DNA of 31,790 bases from IMG/VR virus record IMGVR_UViG_3300047548_001664, positions 1 through 31,790 of that record. One strand, 5' to 3'. The position numbers were made by a program, and so were the translations under genes. This document shows positions 6,785 to 31,790 of this stretch, one piece after another. Position 1 is the first letter of the stretch; each line of letters begins with the position of its first letter. Source of the DNA: a virus. The notes beneath the pieces were generated by a model. That model did not search any database. It had not been told where the DNA came from and saw nothing but the letters and a program-made list of their open reading frames with translations.

Positions 6785-6836
6785 ACGCGGGAGTAAACGT
6801 ATTCCCACAGACTACTGTAGTAGAAACTTCCAATTA
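6785..6836 (-). other. Possible frameshift-stimulating RNA structure
   Basis: In the minus-strand RNA just after the slippery site there is a small hairpin (CTAC-TACA-GTAG). About 30 nt downstream, GGGA can pair with TCCC and ATACG in its loop can pair with CGTAT beyond it, the layout of an H-type pseudoknot. The spacer to this second structure is longer than usual for a stimulator, so its role is uncertain. Confidence 0.35.
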
Positions 6837-7268
6837 CTTTTTTGGTTTATCTGCCTTAGGACGAACAATCGTTACACCTTCTAAAGGTTCTCCATCTGAA
6901 CCCATAATCTTGTCTGGAACTCCAGCAAGAAGACCTGTACATACTGATGAAATCTTTTGAGAGTAAGGCATGTTTAAAAGATCATTAACTGTTTCATCGG
7001 AGAGTTCTTCTCCATTAAAATCCAATTTATAATCAACTTCCTGCCCTAGAGAATCGAACATTGAAAGACCTTTAACGTCTTTGATAGACATCTTCATGGC
7101 TTTAACTACAGCTTTCATAGCTGCATCCATGTCACCATTAGCTGCTTTAATCATCTCTGATTGAAGGGCCATCTTTTGGTGATAAGAGAGAGGACTGATA
7201 AAGATTGAAATGTCATCGACCTTCACTTCTATGCGGTCGCTAGTCTTGTAAATTCTGAATTTGCTCAT
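6834..7268 (-). CDS. Tail assembly chaperone (G-like)
   Basis: A 144-residue protein upstream of the tape measure, in the position of lambda gpG or HK97 gp13. It starts at ATG 7268 (MSKFRIYKTS), preceded by GGAG seven bases upstream; a TTG start four codons earlier would overlap that ribosome site. It ends ...ADKPKK with the last codons CCA AAA AAG TAA, placing an A AAA AAG slippery heptamer immediately before the stop. Residues 28-58 (SPLSYHQKMALQSEMIKAAN and on) are helical, as expected of these chaperones. A TTAATAAG element lies 37 nt upstream of the start. Confidence 0.8.
   Translation of the reverse strand: MSKFRIYKTSDRIEVKVDDISIFISPLSYHQKMALQSEMIKAANGDMDAAMKAVVKAMKMSIKDVKGLSMFDSLGQEVDYKLDFNGEELSDETVNDLLNMPYSQKISSVCTGLLAGVPDKIMGSDGEPLEGVTIVRPKADKPKK
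6837..6843 (-). other. -1 ribosomal frameshift site A AAA AAG
   Basis: The zero frame is CCA AAA AAG TAA, so the heptamer is exactly in the X XXY YYZ register. Slippage by -1 continues with GTA ATT GGA and runs open into the downstream frame that ends at 6352. This is the classic arrangement for siphophage tail chaperones. Confidence 0.82.
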
Positions 7269-7305
7269 TGTTGTCTCCAATGTATTGTTTGAGTCTCTTA
7301 GGATT

Positions 7306-7313
7306 CTTATTAA
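7306..7313 (-). promoter_or_regulatory. TTAATAAG late-promoter-like element upstream of tail chaperone
   Basis: Exact TTAATAAG on the minus strand, 37 nt upstream of ATG 7268, in the gap after the HNH gene. It would drive the chaperone, tape measure and minor tail genes. Confidence 0.5.
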
Positions 7314-7354: not shown

Positions 7355-7888
7355 CTATAGGAGTCGATTACTTTTAGATTTGTTTTCTTCTGCAGATAGG
7401 ATTTGAAGATTCCAGGGTACATGCAAGCCGCAGACTTCTTTACCTTGAAGAGGAATAATGTGATCTACATGGTATTTAATACCGTTATCGTGTTCTAAGG
7501 CTTTAGCACTAGAGTAGAATTGCTCAATCTGCTTTATGTGATCTTCAGTAAGCCATGAAGGGGTAGCATTGAGTTTACTTGCTCTGTACTTGGAGCCCTT
7601 AGCATTAACCTTATCAAGATTCAGGCTGGTCCACTTTTTATTCATTTCTATCACTTTTTGTGGGTTTTCTTCTTTCCACTTCTTTGATGACAGGTTCGAC
7701 TTATCTGGATTTTCTTTTTGATACTCTTTTCTTATAGCTCTAGATTTAACTAAATTAGCTTGATAATACTTTTTACTGGAGAGTCGCTGACAACTTCTAC
7801 ATGAACCTGAAAGGCCATCATTGTTTCTTTTATCCCTAGCGAACTCAGTGAGGGCTTGATGTTCCTTACAGGTTGAGCAGCTTTTCAT
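7355..7888 (-). CDS. HNH endonuclease with N-terminal zinc ribbon
   Basis: 177 residues. The N-terminus carries CxxC-X22-CxxC (Cys 4, 7, 30, 33), followed by a basic helical linker with NPDK/NPQK-type repeats. A C-terminal HNH core begins around residue 138 (YHVDHIIPLQGKEVCGLHVP, then WNLQILSAEENKSK), where HVDH and the later Asn/His residues are the metal-binding positions. HNH genes like this are often homing endonucleases beside terminase genes. It sits 10 nt after the terminase large subunit stop and has AAGGAC upstream of ATG 7888. The same zinc-ribbon spacing recurs in three other proteins of this genome, including the sigma factor C-terminus. Confidence 0.88.
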   Translation of the reverse strand: MKSCSTCKEHQALTEFARDKRNNDGLSGSCRSCQRLSSKKYYQANLVKSRAIRKEYQKENPDKSNLSSKKWKEENPQKVIEMNKKWTSLNLDKVNAKGSKYRASKLNATPSWLTEDHIKQIEQFYSSAKALEHDNGIKYHVDHIIPLQGKEVCGLHVPWNLQILSAEENKSKSNRLL

Positions 7889-9168: not shown

Positions 9169-9618
9169 TTACTCGTCCTTGCTAGGTAAGCGGTTGATCT
9201 TGTTATATGAAATCTCTATTTTGAGTTCTTCTTTTTCAGCCTCAGGTTTGAGTGCATTTGGGTAGTAAACATCTAGTTGGGTTTTAGTTTTTTGATAGAT
9301 TTCGAACCACTTTGCGCGCAAGTTTCCGTCACTTTCTGCAAGATAGTTGGCATAAGCTTCATCTATGTCTGCTTGAAGTGCAGCGATTCGCTTGTTTCTG
9401 ATTGTCTTAATTTTTTCTGAGTTATTTTCTTCTAACTCTTCAGCAGCTAGTAAGTACCATTTGTAAGCTTGGACCTGAGTAATGTTGTAAGTAGACATGA
9501 GACTTTTAACAGTTTCATTCTTTGTCTTGTTCTTAGCTATTAGAGATAGGCAATGAGAAACGTACTGAGCTTTGTTAGCTTTTCCTGCTCGTTCATTGAT
9601 TGATTTTTCTTCTGACAT
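9169..9618 (-). CDS. terS: Terminase small subunit-like protein
   Basis: 149 residues, immediately upstream of terL. Small subunits recognise the packaging site on DNA. Residues about 35-65 (KNETVKSLMSTYNITQVQAY) fit a helix-turn-helix, followed by a long charged helical region (about 65-120) likely to form the oligomerisation domain. The start ATG 9618 is preceded by AGGGG. A TTAATAAG element lies 56 nt upstream inside the end of the previous gene. The assignment rests on order, size and HTH pattern rather than a signature motif. Confidence 0.75.
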   Translation of the reverse strand: MSEEKSINERAGKANKAQYVSHCLSLIAKNKTKNETVKSLMSTYNITQVQAYKWYLLAAEELEENNSEKIKTIRNKRIAALQADIDEAYANYLAESDGNLRAKWFEIYQKTKTQLDVYYPNALKPEAEKEELKIEISYNKINRLPSKDE

Positions 9619-9664: not shown

Positions 9665-10039
9665 CTAGGGTCTTCTTATTAATTTCTTCTTGGGCTTAGA
9701 TTCTTTAATTGGAACTATGTTTGGGATAGGTGGTTGTCTTGAGTAGTACTCAGCGATTCGCTTTGTTACTTCTTTTTTAGATAGTGTGACTTTCTTAGCT
9801 TTAACTCTTTTATCGATCCTTCCACAGATGTCTTTATTGCAAGTTACACAAAGAAGTCCTCTTATGGTCATTGCTTCGTGGTCATGGTCTACGGCGAGTC
9901 TTGTCTTACATTCTGATTGATGAACTCCACAAATTGCACATCTATAGTCTTGAGCTTCTAGTAAGGAATCGTATTCCTCTAAGGAGATGTTGTAGGTCTT
10001 CTTTAAGTGTCTTGCCCTAGCTTTTTCTTTCGTCGTCAT
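9665..10039 (-). CDS. Recombination endonuclease VII-like protein
   Basis: 124 residues matching the T4 endonuclease VII (gp49) family. The pattern is YNISLEEYDSLLEAQDYRCA with CxxC at 34/37, then LAVDHDHEAMTIRGLLCVTC with the catalytic DHDH at 51-54 and the second CxxC at 64/67, followed by an Asn (68). Enzymes of this family resolve branched DNA before packaging, which fits its place just upstream of terminase. The C-terminus is a Lys/Arg-rich tail. The ATG at 10039 has no ribosome site; a TTAATAAG element ends only 7 nt before it, so the message may be leaderless. Confidence 0.88.
   Translation of the reverse strand: MTTKEKARARHLKKTYNISLEEYDSLLEAQDYRCAICGVHQSECKTRLAVDHDHEAMTIRGLLCVTCNKDICGRIDKRVKAKKVTLSKKEVTKRIAEYYSRQPPIPNIVPIKESKPKKKLIRRP
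9675..9682 (-). promoter_or_regulatory. TTAATAAG late-promoter-like element upstream of terS
   Basis: Exact match on the minus strand, inside the last codons of the endonuclease VII gene, 56 nt upstream of the terS ATG. No -35-like hexamer is seen at the expected distance. Confidence 0.45.
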
Positions 10040-10046
10040 GAAGGAA

Positions 10047-10054
10047 CTTATTAA
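10047..10054 (-). promoter_or_regulatory. TTAATAAG late-promoter-like element, leftward
   Basis: Exact match on the minus strand only 7 nt before the endonuclease VII ATG. It forms a divergent pair with the plus-strand copy at 10067-10074, 12 bp away, at the point where the leftward and rightward late units separate. Confidence 0.5.
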
Positions 10055-10066
10055 ATCCTCTTCCAG

Positions 10067-10074
10067 TTAATAAG
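10067..10074 (+). promoter_or_regulatory. TTAATAAG late-promoter-like element, rightward
   Basis: Exact match in the context CCAGTTAATAAGTA, 57 nt upstream of the portal ATG. The same 12-base context (CAGTTAATAAGTA) recurs before the scaffold gene at 12603-12610. Confidence 0.55.
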
Positions 10075-12602: not shown

Positions 12603-12610
12603 TTAATAAG
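12603..12610 (+). promoter_or_regulatory. TTAATAAG late-promoter-like element upstream of scaffold
   Basis: Exact match in the context CCAGTTAATAAGTAAC, 60 nt upstream of the scaffold ATG in a clear intergenic gap. It shares 12-13 bases with the portal copy at 10067. Confidence 0.55.
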
Positions 12611-15057: not shown

Positions 15058-15065
15058 TTAATAAG
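15058..15065 (+). promoter_or_regulatory. TTAATAAG late-promoter-like element upstream of tail terminator gene
   Basis: Exact match, 17 nt before ATG 15083, immediately followed by the GGAGGAG ribosome site. It would drive the tail terminator and tail tube genes. Confidence 0.45.
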
Positions 15066-16941: not shown

Positions 16942-17475
16942 TTATTTATTTTTGTTGAGTCTTTTTTGACGATCTAGTTCTTTTTTAACTAGCTGGGAAA
17001 GATGAATTACTCTTGATGAGAAGGTTCTTAAAATAACTTCTGCATTACTGAAATCATTTCCTAATTCATCAGTACACTCTTGAATTAATTTGGAGAGTAG
17101 GTTTTCAGGAGTTGACGTTGCCAGGTCGTCTTCGATTGAACTCTTTTCTTCTTCGATTAAATAATCTAGGCACTCATCTAAAGGAACCATGTTATTAGAG
17201 CATCCTGCAATGCCAGTAATGTCTCTATTCTGTGCATTCATGGCCAGGTACATCTCTTGCTTAATACTTTTATTATCGCCTTCAGGAGTTTCATAGCTGT
17301 CTTGAAATGCTTGTCTATGAAGTGAGTTCTCTTTAGTGTGTCCACCACAATAATACTCATCAACAAACTTCCTCATAAATTCCTGCTCGTCTTCAGATAA
17401 TGTTTTCACATAATCCATGTCTGCAAACTTTTGGACGTTTCGTCTTAGCTTGTTGCTTGGATTACTTTTTTTCAA
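16942..17475 (-). CDS. Unknown protein, paralogue of the 21215-21577 product
   Basis: About 177 residues if it starts at TTG 17475 (MKKSNPSNKLRRNV); the next in-frame ATG falls inside the conserved part. It shares with the 21215-21577 product the ordered elements RRNVQKF / HRKHVKDF, then DMDYVKTLSEDE / DQDYIDQLSEDE, then EYY, and QNRDITGIAGC / RNRDLYGIKNC. I do not recognise the family. The C-terminal 80 residues are acidic, then basic helical, and unique to this copy. The gene overlaps the end of the upstream gene at a run of seven A residues, so the start mechanism is unclear. Confidence 0.6.
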   Translation of the reverse strand: MKKSNPSNKLRRNVQKFADMDYVKTLSEDEQEFMRKFVDEYYCGGHTKENSLHRQAFQDSYETPEGDNKSIKQEMYLAMNAQNRDITGIAGCSNNMVPLDECLDYLIEEEKSSIEDDLATSTPENLLSKLIQECTDELGNDFSNAEVILRTFSSRVIHLSQLVKKELDRQKRLNKNK

Positions 17476-17656
17476 TCTTAACCAGCTTTGACTTACTAGG
17501 AGCTGGATCATTAACAAAGTAACGAATTACCTTAATAAATCCTTCTGCCGTTCTGTACTCTAGTGGGTAAGACTGGATGTATTCATATCCAGCTAACTTC
17601 TTTTCTACTTCGTTTGGAGCTGTCTCTATTGGTAGCTCAATGATCTTAATACTCAT
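17462..17656 (-). CDS. Small hypothetical protein
   Basis: 64 residues from ATG 17656 (MSIKIIELPIETAPNEVEKK), with GAGGG upstream. It has an alternating strand/helix pattern, contains LAGYEYIQSYPLEYRTAEGF and FIKVIRYFVNDPAP, and ends ...LVKIEKK. It resembles small phage proteins with a short antiparallel sheet (DUF4177-like 'YEYI...I..F'), but I cannot be sure. It is divergent from the endolysin gene and shares with it a 90-bp control region with dyads. Its last codons contain a seven-A run. Confidence 0.55.
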   Translation of the reverse strand: MSIKIIELPIETAPNEVEKKLAGYEYIQSYPLEYRTAEGFIKVIRYFVNDPAPSKSKLVKIEKK

Positions 17657-17674: not shown

Positions 17675-17725
17675 ACTGCTAAAAATCACAATTAATAAGT
17701 TTTATTAGCAGTAAGTATTTTACTG
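17675..17725. promoter_or_regulatory. Divergent control region with two dyads and a late-promoter-like element
   Basis: ACTGCTAA at 17675-17682 and TTAGCAGT at 17705-17712 form a perfect 8-bp inverted repeat that brackets TTAATAAG (17692-17699, plus strand; 46 nt before ATG 17746). A second dyad, CAGTAA-GTATT-TTACTG (17709-17725), overlaps its right arm. On the minus strand the same tract reads CTAATAAAAC, so it may fire both ways. This looks like an operator wrapped around a promoter for the lysis and sigma cluster. Confidence 0.5.
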
Positions 17726-17745
17726 ACTTGATAGAGGAGCTAGTG

Positions 17746-18135
17746 ATGTTGACAGTAGAGAGTTACTTAATGGGTAGAGATAAAACTCATGTTCAGGAGC
17801 TTACTGATGAGATTAAAGAGAATGCAAAGAAGCTAGTAGAGAGAGTTAACTTACTTTTAAAAGAGTTAAAAATTGATGAGGTGAAAGTTTCATCAGGATG
17901 GAGACCACCTTCAGTAAATTCTCAAGTTAAGAATGCAGCTAAGAAATCACTTCACATGATGGGCCTTGCTATTGATCTGCAAGATAATGGACCCATCAAG
18001 AAAGCAATCCTCGACAACCTAGAGCTACTAGAAAAGTACGATCTTTGGTTGGAGAGTCCAGATCACACTCCAACATGGTGTCACTTAGATTTAGGTATCA
18101 GATCAAAAAGACCTAGAAGAATTTTTATCCCATAA
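17746..18135 (+). CDS. Endolysin, M15-family peptidase
   Basis: 129 residues from ATG 17746, with GAGGAG upstream. It matches the M15 zinc peptidases (L-alanyl-D-glutamate or D-Ala-D-Ala type) used as phage endolysins. The motif VSSGWRPPSVN lies at 48-58, SLHMMGLAIDLQ at 68-79 (His 70 and Asp 77 as zinc ligands), and TWCHLDLG at 110-117 (His 113 as third ligand, preceded by Trp). No signal peptide is present, so it would need a holin. It is the first gene of a cluster with a metallophosphoesterase and the sigma factor. The length is compact, just the catalytic domain. Confidence 0.88.
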   Translation: MLTVESYLMGRDKTHVQELTDEIKENAKKLVERVNLLLKELKIDEVKVSSGWRPPSVNSQVKNAAKKSLHMMGLAIDLQDNGPIKKAILDNLELLEKYDLWLESPDHTPTWCHLDLGIRSKRPRRIFIP

Positions 18136-18160: not shown

Positions 18161-18370
18161 ATGAGCATTGAAGCTATCGATCGTCAGAAATTAAAAGAAC
18201 TAAGATCAATTTTGAAGTCAGCTCGCTCTATTAGGTATCGATTAATTCGCTTGGGAGATTATGAGCGTTTTAAGAATGACGTTCTTGAGTTTGAAGAGCG
18301 CCTAATGAATAAAATTGATGAAATTGAATTTTATATTGAGCTTGAAAAGCAGTTAAGAGAGGACGAATGA
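18161..18370 (+). CDS. Small coiled-coil protein, unknown
   Basis: 69 residues, almost entirely helical and charged (LKELRSILKSARSIRYRLIR, then an acidic half FEERLMNKIDEIEFYIELEK). No known motif. ATG 18161 follows AGGA. It overlaps the next gene by four bases (ATGA), so it is translated together with the metallophosphoesterase. Confidence 0.6.
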   Translation: MSIEAIDRQKLKELRSILKSARSIRYRLIRLGDYERFKNDVLEFEERLMNKIDEIEFYIELEKQLREDE

Positions 18371-19065
18371 GTAAACAGACAATTTTAATTATAAGTGACA
18401 TGCACATACCTTATGAGCATCCAGATATGTTGGATTTCTTAAAGGCGGTGAAGAAGAAGTACAAGCCAACTGACGTTGTTTGTATTGGAGACGAAGTTGA
18501 TTTCCATGCAATGAGTTTCCATGACAGTGACCCTGATCTTTTATCAGCTGGGAATGAATTAGAATTAGCAGTAAAGAAGTTAAAGCCTATCTATAAGCTC
18601 TTTCCTGAAGTCACAATAGTAAATAGTAATCATGGTTCAATGGCTATGAGGAAAGCACTTGCATGTGGAATACCTAAAGCACTTATCAAATCTAATAATG
18701 ATGCTCTTGATGCTCCTGATACATGGGAATGGGTTAATGATGTAACAATCAAAACTCCATTAGGTGAAGTCTATTTCTGTCATGGAAAAGCTGGTGCACC
18801 AGGAAAGCTTGCTTCTCAGTATGGAATGTCATGTGTTCAAGGTCACTTCCACGAGAAGGCACAGATCACTTATATTTCTACTCCTAATAAACTCATGTTT
18901 GATATGCATGTTGGTTGCTTAGCAGATGATAATTCGTTAGCTCTTGCATACAACAAAGTTAATCCTAAGCGTCCTATAGTTTCTCTAGGTGTAATTATTG
19001 ATGGCATTCCTCAGCTCATTCCAATGATCTTGAATAAGAAAGGTCGCTGGATAGGTAGAATCTAG
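18367..19065 (+). CDS. Calcineurin-like metallophosphoesterase
   Basis: 232 residues with the full set of metal-binding motifs in order: SDMH (Asp 11, His 13), GDEVDFH (Asp 42), NSNHG, FCHGK, and GHFHE. These enzymes hydrolyse phosphodiester or phosphomonoester bonds, and phage members include nucleases and protein or nucleotide phosphatases; the substrate here cannot be told. It lies between a small coil protein and the sigma factor in a tight plus-strand cluster (4-nt overlap upstream, 2-nt gap downstream), suggesting a role in late infection. Confidence 0.85.
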   Translation: MSKQTILIISDMHIPYEHPDMLDFLKAVKKKYKPTDVVCIGDEVDFHAMSFHDSDPDLLSAGNELELAVKKLKPIYKLFPEVTIVNSNHGSMAMRKALACGIPKALIKSNNDALDAPDTWEWVNDVTIKTPLGEVYFCHGKAGAPGKLASQYGMSCVQGHFHEKAQITYISTPNKLMFDMHVGCLADDNSLALAYNKVNPKRPIVSLGVIIDGIPQLIPMILNKKGRWIGRI

Positions 19066-19067
19066 GC

Positions 19068-19997
19068 ATGAATGAATATATGAAACAAGTGACTGCCATC
19101 CCCATGATAGATCATGCCGAAGAGATTAGGCTTGCAGCTCTTATAGCAGCAGGTGACGTTAAAGCTAAAGAAAAATTAATAGAAGCTAATCTTAGACTTG
19201 TTGTTTCTATTGCTCATTCTTATAAGAAATCTTGTATTGAATTTGCCGACTTAGTTCAAGAAGGAAATATGGGACTAATGCGCGCTGCTGAGAAGTTTGA
19301 CCCCTTAAAGGGGTGCAAGTTTTCAACTTATGCAACTCCATGGATAAAGCAATTCATTCAACGTTTTCTAGCAAATCATAGTCGGACAATAAGAGTTCCT
19401 GTTGGTGTTTATGAAGACTTGCTAAGATTTTCTAGGGAAATAAAATCATTTAGCCTTAGATTTGATAGAGATCCAACTTTTCACGAAATGTGCGACATCA
19501 TGGGCGTGTCTGAAAAAAAGATGAGAACTATTCTTGAAGCCAAAGAGCAGTATACTATCTCTATAAATGTTCCACTGGGTTCTGACTCTGATTCTGGTAC
19601 AGTTGAAGATTACATAGGGCATAGTAATTCTCCTGAAGATATATTAATAGCGCATGAAGAATACGGTGAAAGAGAAAGTGGACCCAACTCAGTATCATTT
19701 TCTAAGCAATCTAAGATTTGTGCTCTTTCCACGGAGGAAATTAGGGCTAGAACTAATGCTTATCATAGAGAGTATAGAAAGCTTAATCCGTACTATGTCC
19801 GCGTTACTCCTAAACCTTCTAAAACTCCAGTAACGGCAAAGGTCACGTCTAAGTATTGCAACAGATGCTCTGTTACCAAGGAAGCCAGTGAGTTCTATGG
19901 GAGCAAAAGTAGTAAGACAGGATTGCATGCATTTTGTAAGGATTGTAGTAAGCAAATAGCTCAAGACCGTCGTGATGGAATTTTGTCAAATAATTAA
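19068..19997 (+). CDS. Phage sigma factor lacking region 4, with C-terminal zinc ribbon
   Basis: 309 residues. Region 2 is clear at about 40-112 (NLRLVVSIAHSY, DLVQEGNMGLMRAAEKFDP, FSTYATPWIKQFIQRFLANH, SRTIRVP) and is close to the RpoD/RpoS class. Region 3 follows at about 113-195 (FDRDPTFHEMCDIMGVSEKK; PLGSDSDSGTVEDYIGHSN). After SPEDILIAHEEYG (residue 200) no region 4 helix-turn-helix appears. Instead there is a linker with EIRARTNAYHREYRKLNP, a pattern of HNH-associated proteins, and a Cys4 zinc ribbon (264, 267, 290, 293). The frame is intact, so this is a fusion rather than a visible frameshift. Such a protein should still melt -10 DNA but not read a -35. T4 gp55 is the known precedent for a region-4-less sigma. 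Confidence 0.85.
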   Translation: MNEYMKQVTAIPMIDHAEEIRLAALIAAGDVKAKEKLIEANLRLVVSIAHSYKKSCIEFADLVQEGNMGLMRAAEKFDPLKGCKFSTYATPWIKQFIQRFLANHSRTIRVPVGVYEDLLRFSREIKSFSLRFDRDPTFHEMCDIMGVSEKKMRTILEAKEQYTISINVPLGSDSDSGTVEDYIGHSNSPEDILIAHEEYGERESGPNSVSFSKQSKICALSTEEIRARTNAYHREYRKLNPYYVRVTPKPSKTPVTAKVTSKYCNRCSVTKEASEFYGSKSSKTGLHAFCKDCSKQIAQDRRDGILSNN

Positions 19998-20173
19998 GAA
20001 GCATTTCTCTCTTCTTTAAATTTTCTCCATTCATCTCTTTCAATTAATAAATGTCTGTAGAGGATTTCAGACACTATTTCTTTCCATTTTTTATGAGAAA
20101 TAATCTCAAGTCTGGCCAGAGTATCTATAAGGTATTTGGTTTGGTGAAGGTCTTCGTCTGTATATTTATTCAT
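19994..20173 (-). CDS. Small hypothetical protein (59 residues)
   Basis: An open frame from ATG 20173 (MNKYTDEDLHQTKYLIDTLA) to a stop at 19994-19996. It is helical and charged, with a C-terminal part rich in Trp, Arg and Lys (ERDEWRKFKEERNAS). Its stop overlaps the sigma factor stop on the other strand, leaving no spare sequence. The ribosome site is weak (gataag). It fills an otherwise gene-free stretch in line with the minus-strand cluster. Confidence 0.5.
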   Translation of the reverse strand: MNKYTDEDLHQTKYLIDTLARLEIISHKKWKEIVSEILYRHLLIERDEWRKFKEERNAS

Positions 20174-20198
20174 GATATATCTTATCAGGTGAGTTAGC

Positions 20199-20462
20199 TT
20201 AAACGTAGCCTCTGTTATCTGACATTAAGTATGAATAGTATTTATTCTTCTCATACTCATTGATTATCAAGTCTTCTAAGATTGGGTCTCGATCTTTCTT
20301 CTTATTCTTTTTCCTAAGAGCTTGTTGTTCAGTGTTGCCTTTTTGATAAGTTTTATAGCAGTCCTTGCACCAGTTAGATTTACCATCTTTATTAGCTTTG
20401 TTTTTAGAATAGCAAGCTAAGGTTTTTTCTTTAAAGCATTTATTACATTTTTTTGTTTCCAT
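20199..20462 (-). CDS. Small zinc-ribbon protein
   Basis: 87 residues. The N-terminus is CxxC-X22-CxxC (Cys 6, 9, 32, 35; KKCNKCFKEKTLACYSKN and WCKDCYKTYQ), followed by a strongly basic region (RKKNKKKDRDP) and an acidic/Tyr-rich end. It is the same ribbon as in the HNH enzyme, the sigma factor C-terminus and the 20515-21213 protein, but here no catalytic domain follows. DNA or RNA binding is likely; function unknown. ATG 20462 has only a weak ribosome site. Confidence 0.65.
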   Translation of the reverse strand: METKKCNKCFKEKTLACYSKNKANKDGKSNWCKDCYKTYQKGNTEQQALRKKNKKKDRDPILEDLIINEYEKNKYYSYLMSDNRGYV

Positions 20463-20502: not shown

Positions 20503-20528
20503 AAGAAGCGACCGTTAAGCCGCTTCTT
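20503..20528 (-). terminator. Hairpin at the end of the Lys-rich repeat gene
   Basis: AAGAAGCG (20503-20510) pairs with CGCTTCTT (20521-20528), an 8-bp perfect stem covering the stop codon of the minus-strand gene. The T tract after it on the minus strand is poor, so termination may be weak. Confidence 0.45.
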
Positions 20529-21213
20529 GTTTCTTCTTTTCTTTATATTTTTTTACATTTGTCTTATGCTTTTCTTTGTTAGCTTCATAGTATTTTTTAC
20601 TGATTAGTTTGCGTTTATCCTTGTTGTTTTTCTCCCAGTTATTTCTAAGTTCTTTGGCTTTTTCTGGATTAGCTTCTCTCCATGCTTTACATAGTTCTTT
20701 GTGCTTTTCTTTGTTAGCTTCATAGTAAGCTCTTATCTTCTCTTTATTTTTCTCACGCCAATTCTTTGCAGCAGTTTTTATTTTTTCTGGATTGTTTTTT
20801 TTATATTCCTTGACCCTGGTTTTTTCCCTTTCTTTGTTTTTTTCGTACCAGTTTTTCTTAGTAGATTTTATTTTTTCTGGATTGTTTTTCTCGTATTCTC
20901 TCACTTTAGTTATTTGCTTTTCTTTATTAGCTTCGTAGTATGCTTTATTGAGTGCTTTGCGTTTTTCTGGATCAGCTTCATATTCAGCTTTGTTCTTAAG
21001 TTTTTTAGCGACTTTAATTTTCTCTAGGTTCGCGGCTTTCCAAGCTTTTGCATTAGCTTTAAGTTTTTCTGGGTTAGCTTGTTGCCAAGCTTTAACAGCA
21101 GAACGTTGACAAGTTTTACACCAACTTCCAAGCCCATCTTTAGAGCGTTTATCTTTGATGAATTCTGTTGTTTCTTTTTCTATTTTACATTTTGTACAAG
21201 TTTTCATATTCAT
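20515..21213 (-). CDS. Zinc-ribbon protein with Lys-rich tandem repeats
   Basis: 232 residues. It starts with CxxC-X22-CxxC (Cys 6, 9, 32, 35; MKTCTKCKIEKETTEF and DGLGSWCKTCQR). The remaining 190 residues are about a dozen degenerate repeats of roughly 12-15 residues of the form (W/Y)-x-(E/K)-(A/K)-N-(P/K)-E-K-x-K, for example YEANKEKHK and EKNNPEKIK. The linker of the HNH enzyme contains two or three such units, so this protein looks like that linker expanded with the HNH core lost. It should be a long, very basic helix suited to nucleic acid binding. ATG 21213 follows AAGGAAGG and lies one base after the upstream stop. Confidence 0.7.
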   Translation of the reverse strand: MNMKTCTKCKIEKETTEFIKDKRSKDGLGSWCKTCQRSAVKAWQQANPEKLKANAKAWKAANLEKIKVAKKLKNKAEYEADPEKRKALNKAYYEANKEKQITKVREYEKNNPEKIKSTKKNWYEKNKEREKTRVKEYKKNNPEKIKTAAKNWREKNKEKIRAYYEANKEKHKELCKAWREANPEKAKELRNNWEKNNKDKRKLISKKYYEANKEKHKTNVKKYKEKKKQEAA

Positions 21214-21214
21214 T

Positions 21215-21577
21215 TTATACCTTCCTTGGTTTTGACTTTTTGAGTAAGTGATCTAGTAACTCAATTAAAGTGTCCTCAGTGTTATCCTTCCCAACTTCAG
21301 TGACATCGTTTTCACTATCAATCATTCCAACACAGTTTTTAATTCCATAGAGATCACGATTTCTAGAGTTCTTTGCAGCGTAAACAGCTCTCTTAAGCTC
21401 TAAGGAGTTATGAAGATGTATTTGCCCTTTAGGAAAGAAGCTCTTGTAGTATTCATTATTAAATAAGCTTAGCCATGTTTTCTCGTCTTCGGAGAGTTGA
21501 TCAATATAGTCCTGGTCAACAAAGTCCTTAACGTGTTTTCTGTGGGTAGATTTTTTAAGGCCAAGGTGATTATTCAT
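21215..21577 (-). CDS. Unknown protein, paralogue of the 16942-17475 product
   Basis: 120 residues from ATG 21577 (MNNHLGLKKSTHRKHV), with GGGAG upstream and an 8-nt overlap with the preceding gene (ATGAATAA). Conserved with its paralogue: DFVDQDYIDQLSEDE, FNNEYY, a His-rich stretch (KGQIHLHNS), and NSRNRDLYGIKNC. The pattern of Tyr, His, Arg-Asp and Cys suggests a compact conserved domain, but I recognise no family. It lies between the winged-helix gene and the Lys-rich repeat gene in the minus cluster. Confidence 0.65.
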   Translation of the reverse strand: MNNHLGLKKSTHRKHVKDFVDQDYIDQLSEDEKTWLSLFNNEYYKSFFPKGQIHLHNSLELKRAVYAAKNSRNRDLYGIKNCVGMIDSENDVTEVGKDNTEDTLIELLDHLLKKSKPRKV

Positions 21578-22082
21578 CTTTAGCTCCCAAAGTTTCAACT
21601 TGTCTTTGAGAGTCTTTATCAAATTTTGTCCCAGTAACTTTAATCTTTCCTTCATCAAGTAAAGGCTTAACACTTCCACAGACAGTAGAAATTCTAAGGC
21701 CAGTTCTGTTTGCTATTTCACTACGGCTTAAAGGAAGGTCAGATTGCTTAAGTGTACTTAGGATTTTGTTGGCTACTTCTTGCTTAGTTCTCTTGGTCTT
21801 CATAAGAGAAAGGCTTCTAGATGTAGGAGTAGAGGCTTCTGGATCACTTAGAATTAGATCGACTTCAGTATCAAATCTAAATGAAGCTACTTTCCAGTGA
21901 ATGTGCTTAAGTGCATCTAATGCTTTGGTCGTAGCAATCAAGACACGACTCTCAGCTTCGTTAATAATGTCAGCTAAGCGTTTCTCAAGAATGTCTAGAT
22001 AGATAGGTGAGGTAGCATCTAAGCTTCTCATTAGAGAGTTAATTAAAGTTTGTTCTTGTGGTGTGAATTCTGGTCCCTTCAT
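21570..22082 (-). CDS. Winged-helix DNA-binding protein
   Basis: 170 residues. The N-terminal part is helical (EQTLINSLMRSLDATSPIYL) with possible dimerisation helices. Residues about 100-160 form a winged helix: VANKILSTLKQSD, LPLSRSEIANRTGLRISTVC as the helix-turn-helix, GSVKPLLDEGKIKVTGTKF as last helix and wing. It may be a regulator of the lysis-lysogeny or early region. Its ribosome site AGGAG (minus strand, near 22090-22096) is locked in a hairpin, so translation may be controlled. The stop overlaps the next start. Confidence 0.7.
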   Translation of the reverse strand: MKGPEFTPQEQTLINSLMRSLDATSPIYLDILEKRLADIINEAESRVLIATTKALDALKHIHWKVASFRFDTEVDLILSDPEASTPTSRSLSLMKTKRTKQEVANKILSTLKQSDLPLSRSEIANRTGLRISTVCGSVKPLLDEGKIKVTGTKFDKDSQRQVETLGAKDE

Positions 22083-23081: not shown

Positions 23082-23158
23082 CGGACCATAGCTCAGCTGG
23101 ATAGAGTAGCGCGCTTCGAACGCGTTGGTCGGGAGTTCGAATCTCTCTGGTCCGGCCA
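23082..23158 (+). tRNA. tRNA-Arg (anticodon UCG)
   Basis: Complete 77-nt cloverleaf. The acceptor stem is CGGACCA/TGGTCCG (7 bp), discriminator G, and encoded CCA at 23156-23158. D stem GCTC/GAGT, anticodon stem GCGCG/CGCGT with loop CTTCGAA (anticodon TCG), variable loop TGGTC, T stem GGGAG/CTCTC with loop TTCGAAT. It lies 70 bp before the integrase start, so it is probably the attachment site as well as, or instead of, a working phage tRNA. Usually attP carries only the 3' part of a tRNA; a full copy is less common. Confidence 0.9.
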
Positions 23159-23227: not shown

Positions 23228-24397
23228 ATGGGAAAGGTTTCAATCAAGTCTACTAACAAGTGGACTATCACACAAGAAAATGGACAGTATTCAATCAGAA
23301 GATGGGTTCTTTATTCTGACGACTCAAGAAAGTTAGAAAGGCTTCCTATTGAGCAGTATCGTAAATTCAGAGACGATATGACTAAGCTAACTGACCTTTG
23401 TACTAGATTAAATTACAGAGAAATTGAAGAAGAGAATGCAAAGAAAGCCTGGAAGGTAAGGTCAGCTTTTGTTGATAATAAACTTCTCTACGAAGGCTTC
23501 AAAAAGTACATGATCTCAAGAGCTGATGATGAAAAGTACGCGGGAAAATGCGCGGGGAATGTTAAGAAATGGTTCTTAGACTATTGGTACAAGCAGAAGA
23601 AATTTGACTATCTTCACTGGCATAAACCAGCTTCTCAATCTGAATTAGCTGATTGGTGGTTAAGTGAGCATGATGGAGAGTTAATCAGTTTTAAAACTAT
23701 TAAAACAAGCATTCATAATCTAAATCACTTCTTTAAATTTCTTCATCAAGAAAGTGAAGGAGAGATACCTGAACTAAAATTTACATTTCCTACTCTCACA
23801 ACTTCTAGAATTAAGAAGCATGAATGGAGTAGAAAGAAATCTCTAGGTTCAAAAGCAGAGAGAAGGTCTGGTCAATACATCAGCAATGACGAATTCAAAA
23901 TGATAATAAAGAATGCTCCCCGAGAGATTAAGTCATGTATTTACTTATCATACTATTTTGGTCTGAGAAGAAGTGAATGCTTGGCTATCACTAAGGATAA
24001 TTTGAGAAAAGGGTATTTGTATTTAGAAAAACAATTAAAGTCTTACGATGGTACTAAAGCTGAATACGGACCTTTGAAGTCTAGAGATGCTAGAAAGGTT
24101 CCTCACTGGCATAAACACTCAATGGAATCAATTCTGAATGCCATTGAAGAAGTTGAACTAATGCACCCATCAACTCTTACAGAACGATGGATAACTCTAA
24201 TGGCCGAGTTAAATCTAAATTACACATTCCACTCATTAAGAAATACATTCATCTCAAATGCGTTTAGAGACGGAAGAAATGCAAGTGACATTCAATTGGC
24301 TGCTGGACACTCTGATCTAAGAACTACAATGGGCTATCAGAGAGACTATCGTGAGATGGATGATGAAGTCTGGACTCCTTCTAAAAGAGCATCATGA
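23228..24397 (+). CDS. int: Tyrosine-family integrase
   Basis: 389 residues. The catalytic domain has Arg 247 (YYFGLRRSE), a likely Lys near 284 (PLKSRDAR), His 335 and Arg 338 (TFHSLRNTF), His 361 (AAGHSDLRTTMGY) and nucleophile Tyr 370. The N-terminal 200 residues hold an arm-binding part (KWTITQENGQYSIRRW) and a core-binding SAM-like helical domain. It would recombine attP with a host site, probably the tRNA-Arg copy next to it. The ribosome site is inside a strong hairpin. The stop overlaps the start of the BrnT-like gene by four bases (ATGA). Confidence 0.93.
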   Translation: MGKVSIKSTNKWTITQENGQYSIRRWVLYSDDSRKLERLPIEQYRKFRDDMTKLTDLCTRLNYREIEEENAKKAWKVRSAFVDNKLLYEGFKKYMISRADDEKYAGKCAGNVKKWFLDYWYKQKKFDYLHWHKPASQSELADWWLSEHDGELISFKTIKTSIHNLNHFFKFLHQESEGEIPELKFTFPTLTTSRIKKHEWSRKKSLGSKAERRSGQYISNDEFKMIIKNAPREIKSCIYLSYYFGLRRSECLAITKDNLRKGYLYLEKQLKSYDGTKAEYGPLKSRDARKVPHWHKHSMESILNAIEEVELMHPSTLTERWITLMAELNLNYTFHSLRNTFISNAFRDGRNASDIQLAAGHSDLRTTMGYQRDYREMDDEVWTPSKRAS

Positions 24398-24732
24398 AAG
24401 AGACTGAAGAAGAAGTCTTAGCTTTATTTAAGTATGAGTGGCACGACACTAAGTCTGAAACAAACTTAGAAAAGCATGACTTCAATTTCAATCAAGCGAA
24501 AGAACTATTTACAAAGAATTACAAGACCACTGTTCAGTATCCTGATTATCGACCTGAAGATAATGAAGATCGGCACAGAATTATATTGCTGGATTTAGAA
24601 ACTAAGAAAGCCTACAGATTAGTCTTTACTATTAGAGACACTACTATTCGTTTTATATCTTGCTCTAGGGTTAGGGATGGAAGTCAGATGACCTTTGCGA
24701 AGTCTGTTTGGAATGAAAAAGGATTTATTTAA
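24394..24732 (+). CDS. BrnT-like toxin
   Basis: 112 residues that follow the BrnT family pattern in order: FKYEWHDTKSETNLEKHDFN (the 'EWD..K...N..KH.v.F' start), FNQAKELFT, then DRHRIILLDLETKKAYRLVF and TIRFISCSRVRD (the 'iRiISaR.a' ending). BrnT is a RelE-fold ribonuclease that is normally neutralised by BrnA encoded just downstream. Here the downstream gene is not BrnA-like, so this is an orphan or has an unusual partner. It is translationally coupled to integrase by ATGA. Confidence 0.75.
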   Translation: MKETEEEVLALFKYEWHDTKSETNLEKHDFNFNQAKELFTKNYKTTVQYPDYRPEDNEDRHRIILLDLETKKAYRLVFTIRDTTIRFISCSRVRDGSQMTFAKSVWNEKGFI

Positions 24733-29282: not shown

Positions 29283-30140
29283 TTAAATTGGAGCTGATCC
29301 AGGACTTCCACCGTTAGAAGTAACGAATAGAAAAGTTAATCTTCCATATCCACCAGCTCCACCAGCAGCTCCATTCCAAGAAATACCACCGGCCGAAGCT
29401 GTTCCGTTTGTGCCGTTAGTGTAACCACCTCCGCCACCTCCACCACCAGAAGAAGCATCGTAAGGAGAGTTTCCTGTTCCTCCGTTTCCTCCGTTAGAGT
29501 GAACACTCGCTCCACCGCCAGCTGCTCCGTTAGCTCCTGATCCAATAGAACCTCCAGTTGCTCCAGGTTCAGCAAGAATTGCAGATACAGAACCGCCAGA
29601 TTGAGGTGCAACAGGAATGTTTCCTTGTCCACCGTTACCTCCGCTAGCTCCATTTCTTGAACCAGTTAAAGAAACTTTTGCAGGTTGATTATTATTTATT
29701 CCTCCACCTGCTCCTCCAGCTTTCGCCGTAGAATCACTTCCGCCAGCTCCACCAGAACCACCGTTAGCGGCAATAATAATTCCACTACCGTCAGTAATAG
29801 AAGTATTGCCACCACCAGAACCTGCATTTGCTAATGGACCGTGAATTCCAGAACTATCAGCTCCGCCGTTTCCACCTGCACCAACAATCATTGTATAAAC
29901 TGTGCCAGGAACTACTGTTACGTTTGCTTTGAAGTAAGCTCCACCGCCTCCACCAGAACCTCCAGAAGTTCTATATGACCCAGAACCGCCGCCGCCACCA
30001 GCACCCCACATTTGAATTGTGATTTGATATGAAGCTCCAGTATTAAGAGCATTAGGTGCAGTCCAGGAATAAGTCCCAGGTGTCGTAATTGTATAGTTAA
30101 CTTCTTGAGCAGCTTTCTGTGGAAGATATAAGTTCGACAT
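29283..30140 (-). CDS. Glycine-rich tail fibre / adhesin tip protein
   Basis: 285 residues from ATG 30140 (MSNLYLPQKAAQEVNYT), with GGAG upstream and a one-base overlap with the preceding stop (TAATG). After a short beta start (TTPGTYSWTAPNALNTGASY, then QITIQMWGAGGGGG) nearly the whole protein consists of Gly-rich runs separated by short strands such as VVPGTVYTMIVGAGGNGG and IIIAANGGSGG. It ends with GGYGRLTFLF. Glycine-rich adhesins of this sort, for example in T4-like phages, form polyglycine II bundles with variable loops that touch the receptor. Its runs of GGN codons make local base composition differ from neighbours. Confidence 0.8.
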   Translation of the reverse strand: MSNLYLPQKAAQEVNYTITTPGTYSWTAPNALNTGASYQITIQMWGAGGGGGSGSYRTSGGSGGGGGAYFKANVTVVPGTVYTMIVGAGGNGGADSSGIHGPLANAGSGGGNTSITDGSGIIIAANGGSGGAGGSDSTAKAGGAGGGINNNQPAKVSLTGSRNGASGGNGGQGNIPVAPQSGGSVSAILAEPGATGGSIGSGANGAAGGGASVHSNGGNGGTGNSPYDASSGGGGGGGGYTNGTNGTASAGGISWNGAAGGAGGYGRLTFLFVTSNGGSPGSAPI

Positions 30141-30676
30141 TATGATAAGTCTCCGTAGCAAAGAATTTGAAATGAACCTTGTGAGTCTTTCTTAGAAGTC
30201 ACACTTACTCTCAATAGTTCATCTTGAAGTAGGATTTCTCCACCTGTATTGAATGAAACAAGATTAGATTCTTCTCCTGCCAAATAATGACCATCGCCAA
30301 TAGTAGGCTGAGACACTAAAACACTGGCCCAAGTAGCTCCACCGTTTGTACTTTTTTGTAAGTCGATAGAGAGTGAACCTGCTGAAGAGGAAGTCGTAGG
30401 AGTTGAAGAAGAGTTAAGAATAGCAATTTTAACTTCTGTAATAATTAAATCTTGAGGAGCTCTGTAAGTGCTAATGCCTGTTAATTCAGCAGCAGTATAG
30501 TTAGAGATGAATCCCATTACTTCAAAGTTAAAGATAGTAACCTTGTTAACCCCTTGCTCAACAGCATTAAGCCTTGTCTCGTGGTCATCTAGGTTATCCT
30601 TTACGCGAATGAAGAGGCGTTTCTTGATCGCTTCTCCAACGGTTAACCAGCTATCGGGAATAGTTATGAAAGCCAT
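30140..30676 (-). CDS. Tail fibre or tip-associated protein
   Basis: 178 residues from ATG 30676, with AGGAG upstream. The N-terminal 45 residues (FITIPDSWLTVGEAIKKRLF, LDDHETRLNAVEQGVNK) form a short attachment helix of the sort found at the base of fibres. The remainder is a beta-sandwich (VKIAILNSSSTPTTSSSAGS; LSIDLQKSTNGGATWASV; LLRVSVTSKKDSQGSFQILC). It sits between the tip protein and the glycine-rich fibre gene. A TTAATAAG element lies 22 nt upstream. I infer that it connects the fibre or decorates the tip. Confidence 0.65.
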   Translation of the reverse strand: MAFITIPDSWLTVGEAIKKRLFIRVKDNLDDHETRLNAVEQGVNKVTIFNFEVMGFISNYTAAELTGISTYRAPQDLIITEVKIAILNSSSTPTTSSSAGSLSIDLQKSTNGGATWASVLVSQPTIGDGHYLAGEESNLVSFNTGGEILLQDELLRVSVTSKKDSQGSFQILCYGDLS

Positions 30677-30694: not shown

Positions 30695-31790
30695 TTAACT
30701 TATTAAATTAGTGCCAGCAGTGTTCTCGTCGTCGTCCACAATCCCGTTGTCTTCTGAGATGTAGGATTGATTGACTCTTTCTGCTATTGTTGAAGTAGAG
30801 TAGGAAGGAGAGTCATCTTCACTGATTCTTGCCCCTCTACTGAATAAAGAACCTAAATCTAGGACCTCAAGATCAACATTCTCTCCGTTATTACTAATCG
30901 CCGAGATTACTCCCAGTCTAAGAGTGTTATCAGTTGAACCATAGGCATTATAAAGATCAGCTAAATTAAGAATGACTCTTTCACCTATCTGGAACTTGCT
31001 TAAAATGACACTTCCCTTGATTTTTATAAGAGAAGTAGAGAGATCGTTAATGAATTGATCTCTTTCTGTAATCTCAATGGCATCAGATTCATTGTAGAAA
31101 TAAATCTCATTCTCAGAAGTGTTTGTACTTTGAGTGTAGTTCTGTGCAAAAGGAGATGTGAAAGTGTGTTGCTTGTTGTTTTCATCTTCAAGCTTAGGAT
31201 CATAATCAATATGTCTATAGTTACTAACAACACTGGCCGATAGATCGAAAGCATCATCATTAACAGTATAAGACAGGATGTCTGAGTCAGTTATATGGCG
31301 AATTTCTTCACCCACATGAGCATCAAGAATGTCATACCCTAAATCTAAAGCATTCGTTATGTGCAAACTTCCTAAAGTACTTTGGTTCAGAATGTTAATT
31401 ACATCTTTAGCTGCTGGGAGAGTTGTGCTTCTAAAGTCTAGTGGGAGAGTAAGAGAGAGAAGGTAAGGAGACCTTTCTTTAGATGCTTCAAAAGATGCAA
31501 CATCAATTCTATCTTCAAGGCCAACTTGCTTTAGGATGTCAGCTACAGCTTCAGGTGCAGTTTCTATGAACTCACCAGTTACTTCGCCGTTCTTTGTCTT
31601 TCCATAGCAGTTAATATAGACAGGAGTATCGTCTTGAATGTACTCCACGTTCTTGTAGTGCATATTTTCTAGTTGAGAAGTTCCTGTATATGGAGTTCTA
31701 AGAACAATACATTTCTCTTCAACTGATAAAACTTCTAAATAGCGACTACTATCCTGATCTATCGACTTAATAAAATCTCTTGTATTAAGA
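30695..31790 (-). CDS. Tail tip / baseplate hub-like protein, C-terminal part (continued from base 1)
   Basis: The frame is open from 31790 (reading ...LNTRDFIKSIDQDSSRYLEV) to the stop at 30695, without a start at its upper end, so the first Met in the window (31663) is internal. It joins in frame to the 1-1889 segment. This half contains VADILKQVGLEDRIDVASFE, SPYLLSLTLPLDFRSTTLPA and ERVILNLADLYNAYG, an alpha/beta region of the kind seen in tip and hub proteins. It ends in an acidic Ser/Asp-rich tail (ISEDDSPSYSTSTIAERVNQ). Treat the two entries as one gene. Confidence 0.75.
   Translation of the reverse strand, partial: LNTRDFIKSIDQDSSRYLEVLSVEEKCIVLRTPYTGTSQLENMHYKNVEYIQDDTPVYINCYGKTKNGEVTGEFIETAPEAVADILKQVGLEDRIDVASFEASKERSPYLLSLTLPLDFRSTTLPAAKDVINILNQSTLGSLHITNALDLGYDILDAHVGEEIRHITDSDILSYTVNDDAFDLSASVVSNYRHIDYDPKLEDENNKQHTFTSPFAQNYTQSTNTSENEIYFYNESDAIEITERDQFINDLSTSLIKIKGSVILSKFQIGERVILNLADLYNAYGSTDNTLRLGVISAISNNGENVDLEVLDLGSLFSRGARISEDDSPSYSTSTIAERVNQSYISEDNGIVDDDENTAGTNLIS
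30699..30706 (-). promoter_or_regulatory. TTAATAAG late-promoter-like element upstream of the fibre unit
   Basis: Exact match on the minus strand in the last codons of the tip gene, 22 nt before ATG 30676. It would give the fibre genes a separate late transcript. Confidence 0.45.

Follow-up and report, generated by a model that had tools for sequence, protein, structure and literature searches.

The window analysed here is the whole of one virus record (IMGVR_UViG_3300047548_001664; 31,790 bp). Its two ends join in a single open frame on the minus strand, in which 3-1889 continues into 30695-31663, and no terminal repeat was found at the record ends; thus, the record is apparently a phage genome that is complete and circularly permuted. 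A relative of the terminase, sought in GTDB contigs for the identity of the host, was not found there. A complete tRNA-Arg gene (anticodon TCG; 23082-23158, plus strand) adjoins the integrase gene (23228-24397) and is a likely attachment site, and directly 3' of the integrase gene a small ORF (24394-24732, plus strand) encodes a protein that matches phrog_4399, a family of ribonuclease toxins from toxin-antitoxin systems.

The ORF at 19068-19997 (plus strand) encodes a 309-residue protein, P0001, which begins at an ATG and joins a sigma factor to a zinc ribbon. It is the last gene of a lysis operon (endolysin-phosphoesterase-sigma), in which the first gene encodes an M15-type peptidase/endolysin (17728-18135, plus strand; Pfam/PHROGs) and the gene directly upstream, ending 2 nt before the sigma start codon, encodes a metallophosphoesterase (phrog_221; 18367-19065, plus strand; Pfam and PHROGs).

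The first 200 residues of P0001 (19068-19667, plus strand) comprise sigma-70 regions 1.2, 2.1-2.4, 3 and 3.2, based on Pfam, phmmer, AlphaFold2 and alignment, and their last stretch, SPEDILIAHEEY, is one that region 4 ordinarily follows. Pfam reports Sigma70_r1_2 at residues 4-30 (E 4.5e-5), Sigma70_r2 (PF04542) at residues 37-107 (E 1.1e-20) and Sigma70_r3 (PF04539) at residues 122-182 (E 2.3e-5); the last of these is marginal, with 24.8 bits compared to a cut-off of 25.3, and region 3 is also backed by the helices of the model and by alignment to SigA throughout. Similarly, the sigma family phrog_351 covers residues 8-189 (E 1e-53), and in phmmer residues 3-191 match the solved chains of SigA and RpoS with E values of about 1e-40 (best 8e-40, SigA). 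The AlphaFold2 run on the full protein, for which the input contained 37 sigma relatives trimmed before region 4, gave confident sigma domains, with pLDDT mostly >90 at residues 1-100 and 121-160. The description of residues 1-200 in the first-pass annotation as an ordinary sigma-70 region 2-3 protein is thus borne out by the Pfam, PHROGs and SigA/RpoS matches.

The sigma half is also well conserved. We defined 35 alignment columns that are at least 85% conserved among 37 other viral sigmas, and P0001 keeps 31 of the 35 (89%), compared to a median of 95% and a minimum of 72% for the 37. Three of its four losses are conservative (L14I, I63V and K120R), the fourth being K50H. The retention of 31 conserved residues indicates that the sigma half is not visibly decayed. 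From sequence and alignment to SigA, regions 2.3/2.4 lie at residues 86-108 (19323-19391, plus strand; STYATPWIKQFIQRFLANHSRTI), and here PW replaces the usual WW pair, a change of W to P that may alter promoter opening or specificity. The 25 viral sigma-like matches to a PWI pattern in IMG/VR share the PW by construction, and their C-termini all differ from that of P0001.

Region 4 was found neither in P0001 nor elsewhere in the window. Sigma70_r4 gave no Pfam match at E ≤1 with the whole protein or at E ≤10 with residues 195-309 alone, and no helix-turn-helix is predicted in the AlphaFold2 models of the full protein or of residues 195-309. The absence of region 4 that had been claimed from inspection is therefore upheld by Pfam, by AlphaFold2 and by a home-made HMM. 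We built this HMM from the region 4 sequences of 40 viral sigmas in which it is intact and ran it with --max across all six frames of the whole window; the best hit, inside the tape-measure protein, had E=0.27, compared to 1e-31 for two positive controls, and thus no intact region 4 was detected elsewhere in the window. Region 4 was likewise absent from the other two frames of 19640-20230 on inspection, which means that its loss is not due to a simple frameshift; this inspection and the six-frame scan together rule out a hidden or frameshifted region 4.

What follows the sigma half is a linker and a zinc module. Residues 201-260 (19668-19847, plus strand) form a low-confidence linker with no Pfam match and no helix-turn-helix, in which AlphaFold2 gives low confidence or disorder at residues 201-218 and, in both runs, a single isolated helix at residues 222-239 (19731-19784). 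The first-pass annotation had likened residues 200-255 to the linkers of HNH endonucleases, a label that is weak: residues from about 239 to 260 do align with the endonuclease VII family phrog_1035, but residues 205-238 are without a detectable relative.

Residues 261-302 (19848-19973, plus strand) form a Cys4 zinc module and a C-terminal helix of the HNH/endonuclease VII kind, based on PHROGs, AlphaFold2 and Foldseek. The four cysteines are indeed at the positions given earlier (Cys264, Cys267, Cys290 and Cys293). In PHROGs, residues from about 256 to 302 match endonuclease, HNH, endonuclease VII and Lar-like families with E values from 7e-8 to 2e-5, and residues from about 239 to 302 align to positions 41-104 of phrog_1035. 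The ribbon is weak in the AlphaFold2 run made with sigma relatives, but when residues 195-309 were modelled with other ribbons, the fold of the zinc module was predicted with pLDDT >90, together with the C-terminal helix. For the predicted ribbon, Foldseek ranks the beta-beta-alpha-Me endonuclease Hpy99I first, at a probability of 0.97 but an E value of 0.2; this match between folds is suggestive and agrees with the PHROGs assignment. The identification of the ribbon as HNH-type is thus supported by homology and by predicted fold. The catalytic HNH/beta-beta-alpha-Me part is absent from P0001: it has no PHROGs match, and the protein stops 7 residues after the ribbon helix. The frame stays open for ∼109 codons beyond the sigma part, to a normal stop.

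To find further sigma-ribbon fusions, we searched three collections, in each case sampling rather than exhausting them. No second fusion was found by tblastn against 50,697 phage genomes, with either the whole protein or the C-terminal part, or with six 8-mers of P0001 in IMG/VR or in GTDB genomes. An alignment search of IMG/VR yielded at least 583 sigma relatives among the 599 stretches listed, and none of the best 80, which were examined, is a fusion. Degenerate DNA motifs in IMG/VR gave 25 matches (STYA-x-PWI) and 14 matches (GCKFSTYA) with no fusion among them, and no match at all for FADL-x-QEGNMG. Similarly, we found no paper on a sigma-zinc ribbon fusion. The fusion is so far a singleton, unique within the sampled phage, IMG/VR and GTDB collections, in keeping with the earlier remark that it is not a standard form; because it is a singleton, purifying selection on the fused part cannot be shown.

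The sigma gene lies among other genes that encode ribbons. Downstream on the minus strand are genes for an 87-residue protein with a Cys4 ribbon near the N-terminus and a short tail (20199-20462) and for a 232-residue protein with a ribbon and a tail of N-x-E-K repeats (20515-21213). Farther away on the minus strand are a complete ribbon-linker-HNH endonuclease gene (7355-7888) and an endonuclease VII gene (9665-10039). The ribbon of P0001 has only about 35% identity to the nearest ribbon in the genome.

Searches with the terminase and the capsid protein identified three related phages: G001 (26.2 kb; terminase 76%, capsid 88%; tail module incomplete), L125 (33.1 kb; terminase 63%) and L126 (terminase 51%). 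The gene that crosses the contig ends of the window also appears to cross those of L125, and L125 is therefore probably complete. Searches of all three relatives with Sigma70_r2, Sigma70_r4 and P0001 were empty, and control genomes were detected as expected. G001 has a single small ORF between its phosphoesterase gene and a winged-helix gene, and no sigma/ribbon block there; in the window, this interval is filled by the sigma gene, the two downstream ribbon genes and 21215-21679. The sigma-ribbon gene is therefore part of an accessory block in which endonuclease-type ribbons abound. The ribbon-linker-HNH endonuclease gene is likewise absent from the equivalent place in G001, and the endonuclease VII gene is also an insertion relative to that phage.

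A further observation from the same comparison concerns an orphan family with two copies in the window (16942-17517 and 21215-21679, both on the minus strand) and one at L009:11734-12252. It is the only non-structural protein common to the window phage, G001 and L125, and has no PHROGs match, no Pfam match above the cut-off and no match in the 50,697 phages; it is a candidate for a late regulator.

The first-pass annotation had predicted recognition of the -10 element only, with promoter-like sites of this kind preceding the late genes. Indeed, the motif TTAATAAG occurs 11 times in the window, compared to 2.75 +/- 1.64 in shuffles (0 of 100 shuffles reach 11), and nine of the 11 copies lie at most 70 nt upstream of a gene on the same strand (p 6e-11). 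It ranks first by upstream placement among the 8-mers tested, each of its one-mismatch variants has 0 or 1 upstream copies, and no conserved -35 or other upstream block was found at its sites. By homology or position, structural, packaging and lysis genes make up the majority of the nine. On the plus strand, copies precede the portal gene (10067-10074), the gene before the major capsid gene (12603-12610), the gene before the tail tube gene (15058-15065) and the endolysin-phosphoesterase-sigma operon (17692-17699). On the minus strand, they precede the tail fibre gene 1912-2859 (2879-2886), 6834-7280 (7306-7313), 9169-9618 (9675-9682), which is just before TerL in the position of a small terminase, the endonuclease VII gene, which is in the late block (10047-10054), and 30140-30676 (30699-30706). 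Since one of these copies heads the operon in which the sigma gene comes last, the sigma factor would be made late.

Enrichment of TTAATAAG extends to phages in which we detected no sigma gene. G001 has 13 copies, 7 of which are upstream of genes (p 2e-7), and L125 has 11 copies, 7 of which are upstream of genes (p 2e-8); the motif, also present at L009 and L013, is conserved across three related phages, whose gene contents differ. Since G001 and L125 carry it, the motif is a feature of the lineage as a whole and can be used without P0001. The link to late promoters thus stands in part: a strict motif without a -35 element does precede late genes, but P0001 as its reader is not supported, given G001 and L125, and TTAATAAG as P0001's own promoter is weakened in the same way. 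The T4-type late motif TATAAATA has no copies in the window. We found no paper on TTAATAAG late promoters in phages.

A second enriched word in the window is GGAGAGT, present 36 times on the plus strand and not at all on the minus strand, compared to an expectation of 4.1 +/- 2.1 for both strands (0 of 100 shuffles reach 36). Its sites span 784 to 31450 irrespective of gene direction (24 antisense, 6 sense and 6 intergenic), and it is a sharp 7-mer with uninformative flanks and much rarer one-mismatch variants. No enrichment was found in G001 (1/5) or L125 (0/1). GGAGAGT is a strand-polar motif that may be, for example, a Chi-like site, a type III restriction site in one orientation, of the kind known from T7 and EcoP15, or a polarity signal for packaging or replication.

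The reading that we favour, to which we give roughly an even chance, is that P0001 is an accessory sigma factor without domain 4, which engages the host polymerase through domain 2 and carries the ribbon as a nucleic-acid-binding tail. The sequence of P0001 preserves both domain 2 and the 3.2 finger; P0001 should thus still dock on host polymerase, where domain 2 would sit against the beta' clamp helices, and it could contact and melt -10-type DNA, but it cannot make the ordinary beta-flap and -35 contacts. Where domain 4 would lie, P0001 has instead a zinc module of the kind found at the N-terminus of HNH/endonuclease VII-type enzymes, fused in frame beyond residue 200 or so, and by analogy with the endonucleases this ribbon would most likely be a nucleic-acid-binding tail. 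We thus infer that P0001 binds both polymerase and DNA. Late in infection, P0001 would probably bias or take over the host polymerase instead of serving as the primary reader of late promoters; its gene is an addition not seen in related phages and is therefore probably not responsible for switching on the late genes.

A more ambitious form of this reading, which we consider improbable, is that the endonuclease-derived ribbon stands in functionally for domain 4: it would touch upstream DNA or the beta flap, so that the fusion steers host polymerase to a promoter set of its own. The zinc ribbon of TFIIB docks on polymerase, and the putative replacement would be loosely like TFIIB and a one-polypeptide answer to the pair of T4 proteins gp55 and gp33. 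If the fusion is functional, then sigma domain 4 is exchangeable for an unrelated zinc-binding module, which would offer a direct way to test what domain 4 adds beyond reading the -35 element. The lineage-wide late-gene motif, in phages without a detectable sigma gene, is of interest in its own right.

Other explanations must be weighed against the accessory sigma factor. If recombination with a mobile HNH/endonuclease VII-type gene had cut the sigma gene short, P0001 might be a transient or non-functional chimera, in frame and with no selected function; we regard this as rather unlikely. It fits the lack of any homologue of the fusion in the sampled collections, the two other ribbon genes nearby, the absence of the whole block from the relatives and the end of the phrog_1035 match before the catalytic part, but the conservation of the sigma half, the intact zinc cysteines and ribbon fold, and the frame that remains open to a normal stop all argue against it, and a fusion that is both local and very recent is made less likely by the low identity to the nearest ribbon of the genome. 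The junction near 19670 could formally also be an assembly chimera, but the reading frame is kept across it and the contig closes in frame.

Two further explanations accept that P0001 works on polymerase and differ in what it does there. As a host take-over factor, P0001 would fill the sigma site on the core, be unable to engage -35 promoters and so depress host transcription. The intact core-binding motifs of domain 2, the missing region 4 and a gene position that fits late expression are all consistent with this, but P0001 would have to compete with the housekeeping sigma, and we think the explanation quite improbable. About equally improbable is the proposal that the ribbon replaces region 4, on DNA or on the beta flap, so that P0001 reads TTAATAAG as -10-only late promoters. 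The sites are real, strict, specific to late genes and without a -35 block, and the anatomy parallels the T4 late promoter with its split sigma, gp55 and gp33 (PMC2988020, PMC7892883); however, G001 and L125 have the motif before genes with no detectable sigma-70 region 2 or 4, and the sigma gene, at the end of an operon that the motif itself heads, would be made late.

Among known systems, P0001 shares regions 1.2-3.2 with the bacterial group 1/2 sigma-70 factors SigA, RpoS and RpoD (E 8e-40 to SigA over residues 3-191), but differs from them in the lack of region 4, in PW for WW in region 2.3/2.4 and in the added C-terminal zinc module. The sigmas of the cyanophages S-CBS1 and KBS-S-2A are of similar length and come from phage records of 30-41 kb, but have an intact region 4 and no ribbon. 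The endonuclease VII/HNH phage enzymes (phrog_1035, phrog_2340 and phrog_2255) and Hpy99I have the Cys4 module and its fold in common with P0001, which lacks their catalytic part and has at its C-terminus the ribbon that they have near the N-terminus.

Other phage sigmas have also lost the helix that reads the -35 element: a clade of 20 viral sigmas among L024-L093 (support 99/96) keeps region 4.1 and ends before the 4.2 helix-turn-helix, as does L025, outside that clade. No region 4.2 was found in other frames near the sigmas of the clade. These region-4.2-less proteins are mostly 240-290 residues long with a short tail, and differ from P0001 in keeping region 4.1 and this tail. The tree places P0001 outside the clade, on a long branch that makes its exact position uncertain, and its grouping with Kyanoviridae sigmas looks like long-branch attraction.

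The nearest system named in the first-pass annotation was T4, which divides sigma into gp55 and gp33; gp33 clamps the flap tip helix as region 4 does, although it is structurally unrelated to region 4 (PMC2988020, PMC7892883). The comparison holds for anatomy and is less apt otherwise, as neither a sliding-clamp family nor gp33, itself poorly conserved, had a match among the window ORFs scanned. Like gp55, P0001 is a sigma without its own domain 4, in a genome with a short late motif that lacks a -35 element (PMC2988020, PMC7892883). Unlike gp55, it carries a fused ribbon, and the late motif of the window phage persists in relatives without the sigma gene.
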